Part shown: positions 51,698-56,480 of the stretch, one piece after another | Position numbering within the stretch: the stretch's first letter is position 1 | Layout of the letters: the number at the start of each line of letters is the position of its first letter | NCBI GenBank assembly: GCA_035504415.1 | Contig: DATJRY010000011.1 | Location: forward strand, 558,001-622,000 | Reading direction: 5' to 3' | Length of the DNA: 64,000 bases | Source: Candidatus Sulfotelmatobacter sp. | GTDB taxonomy: Bacteria; Vulcanimicrobiota; Vulcanimicrobiia; Vulcanimicrobiales; Vulcanimicrobiaceae | Position numbers and translations under genes: made by a program | The notes under the pieces: model-generated | Told to the model about the DNA's origin: nothing | Databases searched by the model: none | The model's input: the letters and a program-made list of their open reading frames with translations, nothing else

Positions 51698-53563
51698 ATG
51701 TCGTCCGTTCTTCGCCGGGCCGGTACCGCCGCGCTCGCCTCTCTGCTCGCGACCGCCGCGCCGCTGGTGCCGAACGCGCCGCTGGACGCGCAACCGGCGC
51801 CGCACAACGTCATCCTGTTCGTCCCTGACGGCCTACGCGGCGCGATGGTCGACGCGACCACCGCGCCGACCATGGACGCGCTCCGGCACGCCGGCGTCAC
51901 CTTTTCCAACAGCCACGCCATCTTTCCGACCTTCACCACCGCCAACGCCTCGACGATGGCGACGGGCCATCTGCTCGGCGACACGGGCGACTTCTCGAAC
52001 ACGATCGACGTCGGCTACAAGGCGCCGTCGGCCGGCTACTCGTTCACGCCCTTCCTCGAGTCGGATCCGGTCATCGCCGACGTCGACGAACGCTTCGCCG
52101 GCAACTACTTGGACGAGGACGAGATCCTCGCGCTCGCGCACGCGCGCGGCTTCGCCACCGCGGCGGTCGGCAAGGTCGGTCCGGTCGCGATCTTCGACGC
52201 CGCCGACGTGCAGGGCACGCGCACGCTGGTCATCGACGACCAGACCGGCCACACCGATCCCGGCGGCAAGCTGATCGGCCGTCCGCTGCCGGCCGACGTC
52301 GTCAGCGCGCTCGCACAGCAGACCGGGACCGCGATCGCGCCGACCCGCGGCGCGAACGGCGTCGCCGGCAGCGCGACGACGCCCGGCACGACCAGCACCA
52401 ACGCCGACCAGCAGAACTGGTTCGTGGCCGCCGCGACCAAGGTGGTGCTGCCCGCGTTCAAAGCCGCCGGCAAACCGTTCGTGCTGGTGTTCTGGTCGCG
52501 CGACCCCGACGGCACGCAGCACAACCAGGGCGACTCGCTGGGCCGGCTCGTCCCCGGCATCAACGGCCCGACCTCGCTGGCGGCCATCCGCAACGCCGAC
52601 GACGACTTGCGCGCGCTGCGCGCGAGCCTGCGCGATCTCGGACTCGAGCGCACGACCGACGTCATCGTGACCAGCGATCACGGCTTCTCGACGATCGCCA
52701 AGGACACGCAGACCTCGCCGTCCGCGAAGTACGCGCTGACCGGCGTCCCGGCCGGCCAGCTCCCGCCCGGCTTCCTCGCTCTCGACCTCGCCGCCGCGCT
52801 GAACCTGCCGCTGAGCGATCCCGACGCCAACGACACCGTCGTGCACCCCGACCTCGAGCACAAGTTCCCCAGTCACGGCGACGGATTGATCGGCACCAGC
52901 ATCACCGATCCCGAGGTCATCGTCGCCGCCAACGGCGGCAGCGATCTGATCTATCTGCCCAAGGATGACGCGGTCGCGCTCGCGCCGACGATCGTCACCT
53001 TTCTCGAACATCAGGATTACGTGAGCGGCTTGTTCGTCGACCCGCGGTTGGGCGCGTACCCGGGCACGTTGCCCGCCGACGCGGTTTCACTCGTCGGCAA
53101 GGCGATCACCCCGCACCCGGCGATCGCGGTCAGCTTCCGCTCGCGCGGCACCGGCTGCGAGAACGCGTTGCGCTGCACGGCTGAGATCGCCGACACGACC
53201 CTGCAGCAAGGCCAAGGGATGCACGGCTCGTTCAGCCGCGCCGACACGGCGAACTTCACCGCCGCGATCGGCCCCGACTTCAAGCGCGGCTTCGTCGATA
53301 CCGCACCGGTCTCGAACGCGGACGTCGGGATGACGATCGCGCGCATCATCGGGCTCGACCTGCGGCACGTCGCCAAAGGCGTACTGCTCGGCCGCCCGTT
53401 CCTCGAGGCGATGCCGGGCGGCACGATGCCGGTGGTGACGCACGGCGAGGAGGTCTCGGCGCCGGGTCTGTTCGGGCTCGAGACGGTCGTCAAATGGCAG
53501 CGCGCGGGCGGCGAGCGCTACATCGACGCTGCCGGCTTCCCCCAACGAACGGTCGGTTTGTAG
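51698..53563 (+). CDS. exported type I phosphodiesterase / nucleotide pyrophosphatase family protein
   Basis: Alkaline-phosphatase-superfamily enzyme (621 aa) with a signal peptide ('RAGTAALASLLATAAPLVPN'). The metal site is read from 'NVILFVPDGLRGAMVDATTA' (first Asp), 'FPTFTTANASTMATGHL' (catalytic Thr), 'VLVFWSRDPDGTQHNQGDS' (Asp/His) and 'VIVTSDHGFSTIAKD' (Asp-His). A final His is expected in the C-terminal part (MHGSFSRAD). Likely activity is hydrolysis of a nucleotide or phosphonate diester outside the cytoplasm. It stands alone, 24 nt after cydB, and is followed by the ilvA attenuator region. Confidence 0.9.
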   Translation: MSSVLRRAGTAALASLLATAAPLVPNAPLDAQPAPHNVILFVPDGLRGAMVDATTAPTMDALRHAGVTFSNSHAIFPTFTTANASTMATGHLLGDTGDFSNTIDVGYKAPSAGYSFTPFLESDPVIADVDERFAGNYLDEDEILALAHARGFATAAVGKVGPVAIFDAADVQGTRTLVIDDQTGHTDPGGKLIGRPLPADVVSALAQQTGTAIAPTRGANGVAGSATTPGTTSTNADQQNWFVAAATKVVLPAFKAAGKPFVLVFWSRDPDGTQHNQGDSLGRLVPGINGPTSLAAIRNADDDLRALRASLRDLGLERTTDVIVTSDHGFSTIAKDTQTSPSAKYALTGVPAGQLPPGFLALDLAAALNLPLSDPDANDTVVHPDLEHKFPSHGDGLIGTSITDPEVIVAANGGSDLIYLPKDDAVALAPTIVTFLEHQDYVSGLFVDPRLGAYPGTLPADAVSLVGKAITPHPAIAVSFRSRGTGCENALRCTAEIADTTLQQGQGMHGSFSRADTANFTAAIGPDFKRGFVDTAPVSNADVGMTIARIIGLDLRHVAKGVLLGRPFLEAMPGGTMPVVTHGEEVSAPGLFGLETVVKWQRAGGERYIDAAGFPQRTVGL

Positions 53564-53570
53564 TCCACCC

Positions 53571-53600
53571 TTGACACGCGCGGCGCAGCCGTGATACACA
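53571..53600 (+). promoter_or_regulatory. ilvA operon promoter
   Basis: TTGACA at 53571-53576 matches the -35 consensus. An extended -10, TGnTACACA (53592-53600), follows with an 18-bp spacer. Transcription would start near 53607, only a few nt before the leader-peptide ATG at 53612. Confidence 0.65.
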
Positions 53601-53611
53601 ACGCCACACCG

Positions 53612-53692
53612 ATGTTCGCTTCGTCCTCGATCATCATCGCCTCTCGGATCATTATCGCGGCTCCTCCGGGCCGACGAGCAGCTTCCGCGTAG
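53612..53692 (+). CDS. isoleucine-rich leader peptide of the ilvA attenuator
   Basis: A 26-codon ORF whose product begins MFASSSIIIASRIIIAAPPG and ends RRAASA. It has six Ile codons in two runs of three (53630-53638 and 53648-53656) within its first 15 codons, a composition very unlikely by chance. When isoleucyl-tRNA is scarce, a ribosome would stall on these codons and leave 53671 onward free. A ribosome reaching the stop at 53690 would cover that segment. It lies between a sigma70-type promoter and an intrinsic terminator ahead of threonine ammonia-lyase, the first enzyme of isoleucine synthesis. The peptide itself is not expected to have another function. Confidence 0.85.
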   Translation: MFASSSIIIASRIIIAAPPGRRAASA

Positions 53693-53729
53693 ACGAACGA
53701 CGATCGCAGACGTGCAAGCCCCTCGCCGG
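53671..53729 (+). promoter_or_regulatory. candidate antiterminator of the ilvA attenuator
   Basis: Segment 53671-53678 (CCGACGAG) can pair with 53722-53729 (CTCGCCGG), 7 of 8 bp. After a 2x2 internal loop, GCTT 53681-53684 pairs with AAGC 53716-53719. This uses the 5' arm of the terminator, so the two structures exclude each other. The upstream half lies under a ribosome at the leader stop codon but is free when the ribosome is held at the Ile codons. Confidence 0.6.
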
Positions 53730-53755
53730 ATTCGGCCGAGGGGCTTTTCGTTTTT
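53716..53755 (+). terminator. attenuator terminator upstream of ilvA
   Basis: AAGCCCCTCG (53716-53725) pairs with CGAGGGGCTT (53737-53746), with an inner CCG/CGG extension around GATT. The T-rich run TTTTCGTTTTT follows (53745-53755). This is a strong intrinsic terminator 31 nt before the ilvA start and 24 nt after the leader-peptide stop. Confidence 0.88.
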
Positions 53756-53785
53756 CCGCACCGCCGCGTTCCTGAAAGGCTTCCG

Positions 53786-55003
53786 ATGACCGCCGCCTTC
53801 CCGCTCCACGCCGACGCCGTCCACGCCGCCGCCGCGCGCATTCGCGGCGGCGTGCTGCGCACGCCGACCGCGCGCTCGCGCGTCCTCTCCGAGCTGATCG
53901 GCGGCGAGGTCCACCTCAAGCTCGAGAACCGTCAGGCGACCGGCGCGTACAAGGAGCGCGGCGCGCTCAACGCGCTGCTCGTGCACCGGGACGACGCGCG
54001 CGCGCGCGGCGTCGTCACCATGTCGGCCGGCAACCACGGCCAAGCCGTCGCGTTCCACGGCACGCGGCTGGGACTGCGCACGACCGTCGTGATGCCGGAG
54101 AACACGCCGCTGCTCAAGGTCCGCCGGACGCGGGACTTCGGCGCCGAGGTCGTGCTCGTCGGCGACGGCTTCGCCGACGCGGCCGCGCACGCGCAGGCAC
54201 TGGCGGCGCGGACGGGCGCGGTGCTCGTCCACCCGTACGACGACGCGGACGTCATCGCCGGGCAAGGCACCGCGACCCTCGAGCTGCTCGAGGACGCCGG
54301 CCCGCTCGACGCGCTGCTGGTCCCGGTCGGCGGAGGCGGGCTCATCGCCGGGGCCGTCCTCGCCCGCGCGGCCCACGGTTCGGGCGCGACCGTGGTCGCC
54401 GTGCAGAGCGAGGCGTTCCCTTCGCTGGCGGCGGCCCGCCACGGCGACGCGGTGCCGGGCGGCGTGACCATCGCCGAGGGGATCGCGGTCGCGCGGCTGG
54501 GCAGCTTGCCGCTGGCCGTCGTCGCCGACGCCGTGCGCGAGACGATCCTGGTCGACGAGCCGGCCGTCGAGACCGCGATCGCGACCCTGCTCGAAGAGGA
54601 GAAGCTGGTCGTCGAAGGCGCCGGCGCGGCCGGCGTCGCGGCCTTGTTGATGCGCCCGGCGCAGTTCGCCGGCCTGCGGGTCGGGATCGTGCTGTGCGGC
54701 GGGAACATCGACCTGGGCACGCTGGCGTCGGTGATCGTGCGCGCGCGCATCCGCGCCGGGCGGGTCGTGCGCATCCGGGTGCGGATGGTCGACAAACCGG
54801 GGGAGCTGGCCAGCGTCGCCGAGGCGATCGCCCAGGCGCGGGTCAACGTCCTGGACGTCGCGCACCACCGCGTGCTGGGGACGGTCCCGGCGAAAGTCGC
54901 CGAGCTGGACCTCACCGTCGAGCTGGAGCGGGCCGAAGATCTGGCCGGGGTGCTGGCGGCGATCCGCGAGCGCGGCTTCGACGCCGACGTCGTCCGCGAC
55001 TGA
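53786..55003 (+). CDS. ilvA: threonine ammonia-lyase with ACT domain
   Basis: PLP enzyme (405 aa) deaminating threonine to 2-oxobutyrate, the first step of isoleucine synthesis. The PLP lysine is in 'LKLENRQATGAYKERGAL'. 'VTMSAGNHGQAVAFHG' and the phosphate-binding glycine loop 'VPVGGGGLIAGAVLA' follow. After residue ~320 comes a single ACT domain ('RIRVRMVDKPGELASVAEAI'). One ACT domain is the architecture of the short form, usually called catabolic (TdcB-like). Here the isoleucine attenuator shows a biosynthetic role, and the ACT domain may sense isoleucine or valine. ATG at 53786 preceded by GAAAGG. Confidence 0.94.
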   Translation: MTAAFPLHADAVHAAAARIRGGVLRTPTARSRVLSELIGGEVHLKLENRQATGAYKERGALNALLVHRDDARARGVVTMSAGNHGQAVAFHGTRLGLRTTVVMPENTPLLKVRRTRDFGAEVVLVGDGFADAAAHAQALAARTGAVLVHPYDDADVIAGQGTATLELLEDAGPLDALLVPVGGGGLIAGAVLARAAHGSGATVVAVQSEAFPSLAAARHGDAVPGGVTIAEGIAVARLGSLPLAVVADAVRETILVDEPAVETAIATLLEEEKLVVEGAGAAGVAALLMRPAQFAGLRVGIVLCGGNIDLGTLASVIVRARIRAGRVVRIRVRMVDKPGELASVAEAIAQARVNVLDVAHHRVLGTVPAKVAELDLTVELERAEDLAGVLAAIRERGFDADVVRD

Positions 55004-55118: not shown

Positions 55119-56480
55119 TTGGCTACCAACTTCCTCGACCGCTCCCGTTCTGTCGCCGGCCCGGGCTTCAACCGCTGGCTCGTGCCCCCCGCGGCGCTGT
55201 GTATCCACCTGTGTATCGGTGAAGTGTACGCGTTCAGCGTCTTCAACAAGCCGCTGAGCCAGGCGATCGGCATCACCGCACCGGCCCCGGGTGACTGGTC
55301 GATCCCCGCATTGGGCTGGATCTTCAGCGTCGCCATCGCCGTGCTCGGCATCTCATCGGCGGTCTGGGGCCGCTGGATGGAGCGCGTCGGCCCGCGCATG
55401 GCGATGTTCTGGGCCGCGATCGCCTTCGCCGCCGGTTTCTTCGTTTCGGCGATCGGCGTTCAGGTCCACCAGCTGTGGCTGGTCTATCTCGGATACGGCG
55501 TGATCGGCGGCTGGGGCTTGGGCATCGGCTACATCTCGCCCGTCTCGACGCTGATCAAGTGGTTCCCCGATCGCCCGGGCCTGGCGACCGGGACGGCGAT
55601 CATGGGCTTCGGGGGTGCGGCGCTGATCGCATCGCCGCTCTCGGTCCTGCTGATGAAGCATTTCGGCGGCCCGACCTCGGTCGGCGTCGCGCCGACGTTC
55701 GTCGTGCTCGGCGTGCTGTATCTGATCTGGATGATGGTCGGCTCGCAGATCGTGCGCGTCCCGCCTCCCGGCTGGCGCCCTGCCGGCTGGAGCCCGACCG
55801 ACGAGTCGGGCAAGATGATCACCACCCGCCAAGTGGTGCGAGCGCAGGCGCTGCGCACGCCGCAGTTCTACCTGCTCTGGCTGGTGCTGTTCTTCAACGT
55901 CACCGCCGGCATCGGGGTGCTCGGCCAAGCCTCGCTGATGGCGCAAGACGTCCTGGGCGTCACCGCCGCGGCGGCGGCCGGCTTCGTCGGCCTGCTCTCG
56001 CTCTTCAACATGGGCGGCCGCATCTTCTGGGCCTCGATGTCGGACTTCATCGGGCGCAAGGGCACGTACGTGATCTTCTTCGTCGTCGGCGCGATCTTGT
56101 ACGCGCTCACGCCGACGCTCGGACAAACTCACGCCGTCGTGCTGTTCGTCTTGGCGTACTGCATCGTCCTCACGTTCTACGGCGGCGGCTTCGCGACGGT
56201 ACCGGCCTACCTGCGCGACCTGTTCGGAACGGTCGAGGTCGGCGCGATCCACGGCGTCCTGTTGACGGCGTGGTCGGCGGCCGGCGTCGCCGGTCCGGTG
56301 CTGATCAACTACATCCGCCAGTTCGAGCTGGACCACGGCGTGGCCAAGAATGACGCCTACGGCGTGACGATGTACGTCATGGCGATCCTGCTCGTGCTCG
56401 GCTTGATCTGCAACCTGCTGATCCGGCCGGTGGCTGATCGCTTCTACGTGCCGGCCGGCGCTGCCGAAGCCGTGGCCTGA
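55119..56480 (+). CDS. OFA-family MFS transporter (oxalate/formate antiporter type)
   Basis: A 12-TM MFS protein (453 aa) of the oxalate:formate antiporter family. The first helix is 'ALCIHLCIGEVYAFSVFNKP'. A loop-2 segment follows ('SAVWGRWMERVGPRMAMFWA'), then 'GWGLGIGYISPVSTLIKWFP' and 'DRPGLATGTAIMGFGGAAL'. The family exchanges small carboxylates (oxalate, formate, pyruvate and similar). It is convergent with a formate dehydrogenase operon, which supports formate or oxalate as the substrate. The TTG at 55119 follows a strong GGAGGAGAGG site. The small-subunit gene follows 12 nt after the stop. Confidence 0.9.
   Translation: MATNFLDRSRSVAGPGFNRWLVPPAALCIHLCIGEVYAFSVFNKPLSQAIGITAPAPGDWSIPALGWIFSVAIAVLGISSAVWGRWMERVGPRMAMFWAAIAFAAGFFVSAIGVQVHQLWLVYLGYGVIGGWGLGIGYISPVSTLIKWFPDRPGLATGTAIMGFGGAALIASPLSVLLMKHFGGPTSVGVAPTFVVLGVLYLIWMMVGSQIVRVPPPGWRPAGWSPTDESGKMITTRQVVRAQALRTPQFYLLWLVLFFNVTAGIGVLGQASLMAQDVLGVTAAAAAGFVGLLSLFNMGGRIFWASMSDFIGRKGTYVIFFVVGAILYALTPTLGQTHAVVLFVLAYCIVLTFYGGGFATVPAYLRDLFGTVEVGAIHGVLLTAWSAAGVAGPVLINYIRQFELDHGVAKNDAYGVTMYVMAILLVLGLICNLLIRPVADRFYVPAGAAEAVA

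Follow-up and report, generated by a model that had tools for sequence, protein, structure and literature searches.

A probable isoleucine-responsive attenuator upstream of a stand-alone ilvA gene and a related family of amino-acid attenuators in Eremiobacteriia

The ilvA locus and its leader

The window, i.e. the whole stretch of 64,000 nucleotides that was analysed, is situated on contig 11 of a 4.17 Mb genome. Between positions 53560 and 53800 a promoter, a leader open reading frame, a terminator hairpin and then ilvA are read in this order. The coordinates given by the original prediction are correct on direct reading, except that its antiterminator is too short (see below). The features are as follows, with the basis of each in brackets; G010 and G005 are two congeneric genomes.

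53571..53576, + strand: -35 element TTGACA of the leader promoter (sequence; aligned with TTGACG/TTGACA in the ilvA leaders of G010 and G005)
53592..53600, + strand: extended -10, TGaTACACA (sequence; alignment with relatives)
53595-53600, + strand: -10 box proper of the leader promoter (sequence)
53612..53692, + strand: leader ORF MFASSSIIIASRIIIAAPPGRRAASA, 26 codons, ATG at 53612, TAG at 53690-53692 (sequence, ORF list; homologous leaders)
53630..53638, + strand: first Ile run, ATC ATC ATC (sequence; II kept in both relatives)
53648..53656, + strand: second Ile run, ATC ATT ATC, directly 5' of helix 1:2 (sequence; III or II kept in both relatives)
53658..53673, + strand: anti-antiterminator hairpin 1:2, CGGCUC-CUCC-GGGCCG (folding; family covariation)
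53666..53689, + strand: antiterminator arm 2, its 3' end directly adjacent to the leader stop codon (pairing energy; family covariation)
53712..53734, + strand: antiterminator arm 3, common to the terminator 5' arm and loop (pairing energy)
53716..53755, + strand: intrinsic terminator 3:4, AAGCCCCTCGCCGG ATTC GGCCGAGGGGCTT then TTCGTTTTT (sequence, folding, family alignment)
53786..55003, + strand: ilvA, threonine ammonia-lyase, 405 aa (PALP domain and one C-terminal ACT domain, Pfam)

The extended -10 has counterparts in the aligned relatives (TGGTAAAAC, TGGTATTGA). From the spacing of these elements transcription is predicted to start at about 53606-53609, which would leave a 5' UTR of only about 3-6 nt. 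The leader ORF is not preceded by a Shine-Dalgarno sequence, and the ATG of ilvA at 53786 has its own GAAAGG 6 nt upstream. As expected of an attenuator, six Ile codons, which specify the end product, are clustered in two runs ahead of ilvA, and the intrinsic terminator sits between the leader ORF and the gene. A generic consensus scan for promoters and terminators picked up neither the leader promoter, because its -10 is weak, nor the terminator, because its T-run is broken by CG.

The IlvA protein of the window reaches 484 bits with NF005600 (cut-off 496) and 360.8 with TIGR01127 ilvA_1Cterm (cut-off 378.75); its orthologue in G010, which is 73% identical, exceeds both cut-offs. Among the remaining threonine-dehydratase-like genes of the genome the best-scoring one, on contig 4, exceeds the cut-off for threo-3-hydroxyaspartate ammonia-lyase and not that for threonine ammonia-lyase. 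This fits the earlier claim that the leader shows the enzyme to be biosynthetic, which we regard as a strong inference rather than a demonstration. A gene for an L-lactate-type MFS transporter (NF049980, above cut-off) follows at 55119-56480 of the window, 115 nt 3' of ilvA on the same strand.

Upstream of the leader lies a phosphodiesterase-like gene of the same orientation (51698-53563), the end of which is 48 nt from the leader ATG. With a gene end so close, the terminator could be that of the upstream gene and the Ile-rich ORF a product of chance. However, a promoter is present between this gene and the leader ORF, and in G010 and G005 the leader-terminator unit stays beside ilvA despite different upstream sequence. 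Chance does not explain the two III runs either: the real window contains one stop-to-stop piece with a double III run, whereas 100 Markov-1 simulations of 64 kb contained none. We therefore consider the assignment of the terminator to the upstream gene practically negligible.

RNA helices of the leader

The terminator hairpin (53716-53746) has a folding energy of about -24 kcal/mol and is followed by a T-tract extending to 53755. An antiterminator had been proposed between 53671-53684 and 53716-53729. This pairing is present but was drawn too short; the longer version, 53666-53689 with 53712-53734, reaches about -21 kcal/mol compared to -6.1 to -11.5 kcal/mol for other windows of the leader. 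Antiterminator and terminator have one arm in common and are mutually exclusive, as in an attenuator. While these two helices had been recognized in the original prediction, the third, the anti-antiterminator at 53658-53673, was missing from its list. This hairpin is placed just 3' of the regulatory codons and overlaps arm 2 of the antiterminator, the position in which an attenuator would have it.

Of 200 dinucleotide shuffles of the whole ilvA leader, 195 fold less well than the real sequence (z -2.1). Taken alone, the 2:3 helix of the window is unexceptional for GC-rich RNA (p_shuffle 0.09), and it is weaker than in the ilvC relatives. Since this pairing is unremarkable for its composition, the argument rests on conservation and covariation in related sequences. 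A short IUPAC pattern for arm 2 had matches that were no commoner than those of the reversed control in GC-rich genomes.

Riboswitch platforms likewise combine a terminator with competing helices. We considered whether the terminator could be under the control of a riboswitch or T-box, i.e. an RNA binding a metabolite or a tRNA, the short ORF being incidental. Against this, the gap of about 23 nt between the ORF and the terminator is too short for an aptamer, and the codon content of the leaders follows the downstream gene (see below). There is no support from Rfam: neither the window nor 18 homologous loci gave a match at gathering score, and in the leader none appeared at E up to 1. Control by a binding RNA is thus highly improbable.

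Conservation of the ilvA leader

A covariance model built from two sequences, the window and G010, was searched against 117 genomes of the class and recovered the ilvA leader of a third congeneric genome, G005, at E 2.4e-15. The three leader peptides are MFASSSIIIASRIIIAAPPGRRAASA (window), MYVWSSPIIAGIIIAVPSGRRAASA (G010), and MLRCALVIIAGSIIAAPPSRRVVSA (G005); the Ile blocks of the two congeners, PIIAGIII and VIIAGSII, are present in diverged sequence. Within the genus, 11 genomes in all, this ilvA is found at E 1e-80 or better in only three, and each of these has the leader. G010 and G005 retain the leader, the Ile codons, the 1:2 hairpin, the antiterminator, and the terminator. The original prediction had named a lack of conservation of the Ile runs and of the alternative pairing as its refutation; both are kept in the two congeners with this ilvA.

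The ilvA orthologues of other genera (at most 70% identity; G017, G028, G101, G102, G120) have no leader of this type, and leader control is therefore not essential to the enzyme. In G024 a leader of its own with a III run, VVTFEIAARIIIGRTSCRSRWSCV, precedes a diverged threonine-dehydratase-like gene. In a search of plasmids the matches were all distant and fell in the ilvA coding region; among the best of them none begins in the leader.

Leaders with a terminator were also seen before an apparently broken or frameshifted threonine-dehydratase-like gene (L275, G097:C33) and before another gene in G096 and G029 (L304 and L305). These three leaders hold Thr/Ile/Met-containing codons (ATLTIMRT, ATITMLRS).

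Family-wide covariation

The helices were counted one by one in an alignment of 20 sequences. In the terminator 3:4 95% of the cells are paired and 15 changes on both sides were found, compared to a mean of 4.9 in shuffled alignments. The antiterminator 2:3 is paired in 74% of the cells (17 both-side changes, shuffled mean 7.6), and the anti-antiterminator 1:2 in 77% (18 both-side changes, shuffled mean 6.1). The covariation scores are 0.403 versus 0.225 in shuffles for helix 1:2 and 0.178 versus 0.135 for helix 2:3; the count for the latter is lowered by some rows of the alignment that are misaligned in arm 2. For each of the three helices none of 500 shuffles, which ignore the kinship of the sequences, reached the observed score, so that the covariation of the alternative stems in relatives, proposed as a check in the original prediction, is found for all three. 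Sliding the partner strand reduced the score of every helix. The position of arm 2, in the final part of the leader ORF and at or close around its stop codon, is the one that ribosome-release attenuation demands.

The ilvA and ilvC leaders end in similar residues (GRRAASA/NRRAAFA), and the leader peptide could accordingly be a small protein, for instance one acting in trans like Sinorhizobium peTrpL (PMC7298713), besides or instead of attenuation in cis. Yet the C-terminal stretch coincides with RNA arm 2, and the leaders of other pathways differ in their C-terminal residues and nevertheless keep the pairing. Selection therefore acts on the RNA, and a function of the peptide itself seems very unlikely.

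Attenuators of other pathways in Eremiobacteriia

Covariance models started from the ilvA leader retrieved similar attenuators throughout the class Eremiobacteriia. The Ile leader on a stand-alone ilvA is real as originally described; it is not an isolated curiosity but a member of a large attenuator family. Model R2, made from 20 sequences, begins no earlier than 48 nt before the end of the leader ORF and stops with the T-tract; it has matches at E <= 0.05 in 108 of 149 genomes of the phylum. As the weaker matches include plain terminators and the one match inspected from outside the class, in G134, has no leader, our claims are confined to the class. Among the 124 R2 matches examined, 96, which come from 45 genomes, have a short ORF in place and a -35 element with at least five of the six TTGACA positions 36-42 nt upstream of the start codon. 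About 20 representative downstream genes were checked by NCBIfam or Pfam and the remainder were assigned by eye from the N-terminal sequence.

In most genomes of the genus a leader with mixed Ile, Leu, and Val codons precedes ilvC; in others such a leader is found ahead of ilvB. The leaders of thrC are Thr leaders with an unbroken series of 12 Thr codons, those of a pheA-type gene are Phe/Tyr leaders, and those of metY are Met/Cys leaders. The genome of the window itself has leaders before ilvA, ilvC, aroA, and metB, before genes for a peroxiredoxin, a prephenate-dehydratase/DAHP-synthase, sulfite reductase, and an ssuA-type binding protein, and before metY; additionally, a Thr/Met leader precedes hom. 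Its codon runs include LVLVLV (ilvC), WYF (aroA), FGYWYFY (pheA-type), MMRMM (metB), and TTTTMTTT (hom).

Several leaders deserve separate mention. The peroxiredoxin gene has a Cys-rich leader, MFETGRSAMCCCLCRPRTGRPGFSLA, with a terminator (L286, G000:C19:22148), possibly an attenuator by which an oxidative-stress gene responds to cysteine or redox state. Cys/Met leaders precede ssuA-type sulfonate-binding proteins (L292, G000:C10:77879; L316, L318, L341), and their codons suggest that sulfur uptake is under attenuation as well as biosynthesis. Trp leaders, MYLVRWCVNWCSDHPGGW and MYLVHWCVHWCSDRPGGW, are found before trpD in G072 (L326) and G074 (L336), with TTGACA 38 nt upstream. The hom leaders (L287 in G000, L337, L340, L355, L372) hold Thr, Met, and Ile codons, e.g., MMTTTITTTTTLGEG, the Ile codons being those of the relatives; these amino acids are the end products of the homoserine dehydrogenase branch. 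The -35 of the hom leaders is TTGCGC-like and weaker than that of the other leaders. Tyr-rich leaders with terminators, e.g., MFVLQSFAYYYYYGYFDRSRPGTPLL, stand before a protein of 256-274 aa (L361, G064:C57; L375, G078:C63; L385, G021:C6). The protein downstream of L361 has no Pfam or NCBIfam family at the thresholds used, and the codon run suggests a tyrosine-linked enzyme.

For a comparison of leader codons with downstream pathways 85 leaders were picked by the position of the promoter and not by composition. In the 96 leaders of the 45 genomes Ile is matched with ilvA; Ile, Leu, and Val with ilvB and ilvC; Thr with thrC and hom; Phe, Tyr, and Trp with pheA, aroA, and aroF; Trp with trpD; Met with metY and metB; and Cys with sulfur genes. 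The mean cognate fraction is 0.21 Ile in ilvA leaders (0.04 in other leaders), 0.42 Ile/Leu/Val before ilvB/C/E (0.16 elsewhere), 0.26 Phe/Tyr/Trp before aromatic genes (0.05), 0.40 Thr before thrC (0.04), 0.16 Met before metY/B/X (0.02), 0.16 Cys before sulfur genes (0.02), and 0.18 Trp before trpD (0.01). The overall cognate score is 24.6, compared to a maximum of 14.5 in 5000 shuffles of the labels. Given this match over 85 homologous attenuators, no other reading comes near amino-acid-specific attenuation, and the leader-peptide attenuation of the original prediction is supported. As the codon run names the pathway, the leaders can help to assign functions to unannotated genes.

With some reservation we favour the view that the leaders of Eremiobacteriia are built on one homologous leaderless chassis, consisting of a promoter followed at once by the ATG, a codon run that varies, a constant arm 2, and the GCCCCTCGCC terminator, which was copied or given new codons so that it senses Ile, Ile/Leu/Val, Leu, Thr, Thr/Met/Ile, Phe/Tyr/Trp, Trp, Met, or Cys. 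If this is true, a general translation-based amino-acid control would govern a large part of biosynthesis in the class, and would include sulfur uptake and the peroxiredoxin.

Promoter spacing and start of the leader transcripts

Across pathways and genera TTGAC is found 36-42 nt before the leader start codon with a mode at 38; the -35 element of the ilvA leader, at 41 nt, falls into this peak. These seven positions hold 88 occurrences of TTGAC, compared to 85 over 69 other positions. Although R2 does not reach the promoter, 96 of 124 R2 matches have a -35 element of at least 5/6 at this distance, compared to 7-38 in other 7-nt windows with the same maximisation. Where a -10 starting with TA is present, its distance to the start codon is 6-13 nt, mostly 7-9 nt. 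A Shine-Dalgarno-like motif was found at nine of 96 leaders and at 66 of 91 downstream genes.

Given ordinary promoter geometry, the 5' UTRs of the leaders are predicted to comprise about 0-6 nt. Because of the fixed -35 spacing and the scarcity of Shine-Dalgarno sequences, the leader mRNAs are predicted to be leaderless or nearly so. The spacing and the scarcity of Shine-Dalgarno sites, together with the predicted start sites, are those of leaderless attenuators of the C. glutamicum ilvBNC type.

Alternatively, the TTGAC box could be unused and the leaders be transcribed from another promoter with a normal 5' UTR; attenuation would be unchanged but not leaderless. The weakness of the -10 boxes speaks for this alternative, as a hexamer beginning with TA at a spacer of 16-19 is missing in 24 of the 96 leaders. 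An unused box, however, is hard to reconcile with the sharp positioning of TTGAC(A) across pathways and genera, and an ordinary 5' UTR with the difference in Shine-Dalgarno-like motifs between leaders and downstream genes. We consider an ordinary transcript unlikely.

Proposed mechanism

The ilvA leader is very probably a ribosome-mediated, isoleucine-sensing transcription attenuator and a member of the family of homologous amino-acid attenuators that Eremiobacteriia possess. We base this reading on the elements of the leader, their conservation, the covariation of three helices, the match of codons and genes, and the fixed spacing between promoter and start codon. From these we infer the start site, the leaderless initiation, the stalling, and the response to isoleucine.

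According to this model transcription would begin a few nucleotides before the leader ATG and the leader would be translated as a leaderless or nearly leaderless message. With ample Ile-tRNA the ribosome would reach the stop codon at 53690 and cover arm 2 (53666-53689); the terminator 3:4 could then form and transcription would stop before ilvA. Under a shortage of Ile-tRNA it would stall on the second Ile run (53648-53656) and mask arm 1 (53658-53663); the footprint of a ribosome stalled there would end near 53668. Arm 2, being free, would pair with arm 3 and block the terminator, and the polymerase would read into ilvA. If the leader is not translated, the 1:2 hairpin would form, so that termination would be the default.

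A ribosome stalled on the first Ile run would leave arm 1 free, and termination would be favoured. This run is too distant from arm 1 for masking, and the two runs may therefore differ in their action. Such early stalling may be a guard against wasteful expression in severe starvation, or may have no effect.

Comparison with known attenuators

The mechanism proposed here is known, and the ilvA leader has every feature of a classical attenuator that can be tested in sequence. As in enterobacterial attenuators, ribosomes would stall on cognate codons, with competition among three or four RNA segments. The enterobacterial ilvGMEDA, thr, leu, phe, and trp attenuators have Shine-Dalgarno sites and longer 5' leaders, and enterobacterial ilvA is part of an operon controlled by a mixed Ile/Val/Leu leader. 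The enterobacterial thr leader codes for Thr and Ile, just as the hom leaders described here code for Thr, Met, and Ile. We know of no sequence chassis common to the enterobacterial operons.

Eremiobacterota are a little-studied and almost uncultured phylum. In the literature searched, with subscription journals and preprints outside its scope, we found no report of attenuation in Eremiobacterota. What is new is the stand-alone, Ile-only case of ilvA in this phylum and, more so, the predicted class-wide leaderless family on a common chassis. The same architecture across many pathways is a natural experiment in re-coding an attenuator for a new amino acid, and the family offers a system for testing how leaderless initiation is coupled to transcription.

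Single aspects of the family have been described in other bacteria. In Sinorhizobium meliloti the 5' end of the trpL attenuator RNA is the leader ATG (PMC7298713); this system concerns Trp only and a single locus, unlike the multi-pathway family described here. Mycobacteria, which are rich in leaderless transcripts, have small upstream ORFs with clusters of Cys codons before sulfur genes (PMC4633059). Such Cys-rich ORFs are candidate Cys attenuators and have no conserved terminator (PMC1262725), whereas terminators and antiterminators are clear in the leaders of Eremiobacteriia. For Actinobacteria candidate ilvB leaders, i.e. short ORFs with Ile/Val/Leu runs and terminators, were described by Seliverstov in 2005; they include no ilvA case and the mode of regulation was left unclear (PMC1262725).

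A close counterpart is the ilvBNC leader of Corynebacterium glutamicum, MTIIRLVVVTARRLP, where transcription starts one nucleotide from the start codon, a ribosome-binding site is missing, and terminator, antiterminator, and anti-antiterminator hairpins are present (PMC11857589). Both systems have a leader peptide for branched-chain amino acids, the three types of hairpin and a leaderless start, the latter being predicted in our case. The corynebacterial leader contains Ile, Val, and Leu codons and controls ilvBNC in a different phylum, whereas the leader described here is an Ile-only leader on a stand-alone ilvA and, unlike its counterpart, belongs to a homologous set spanning many pathways.
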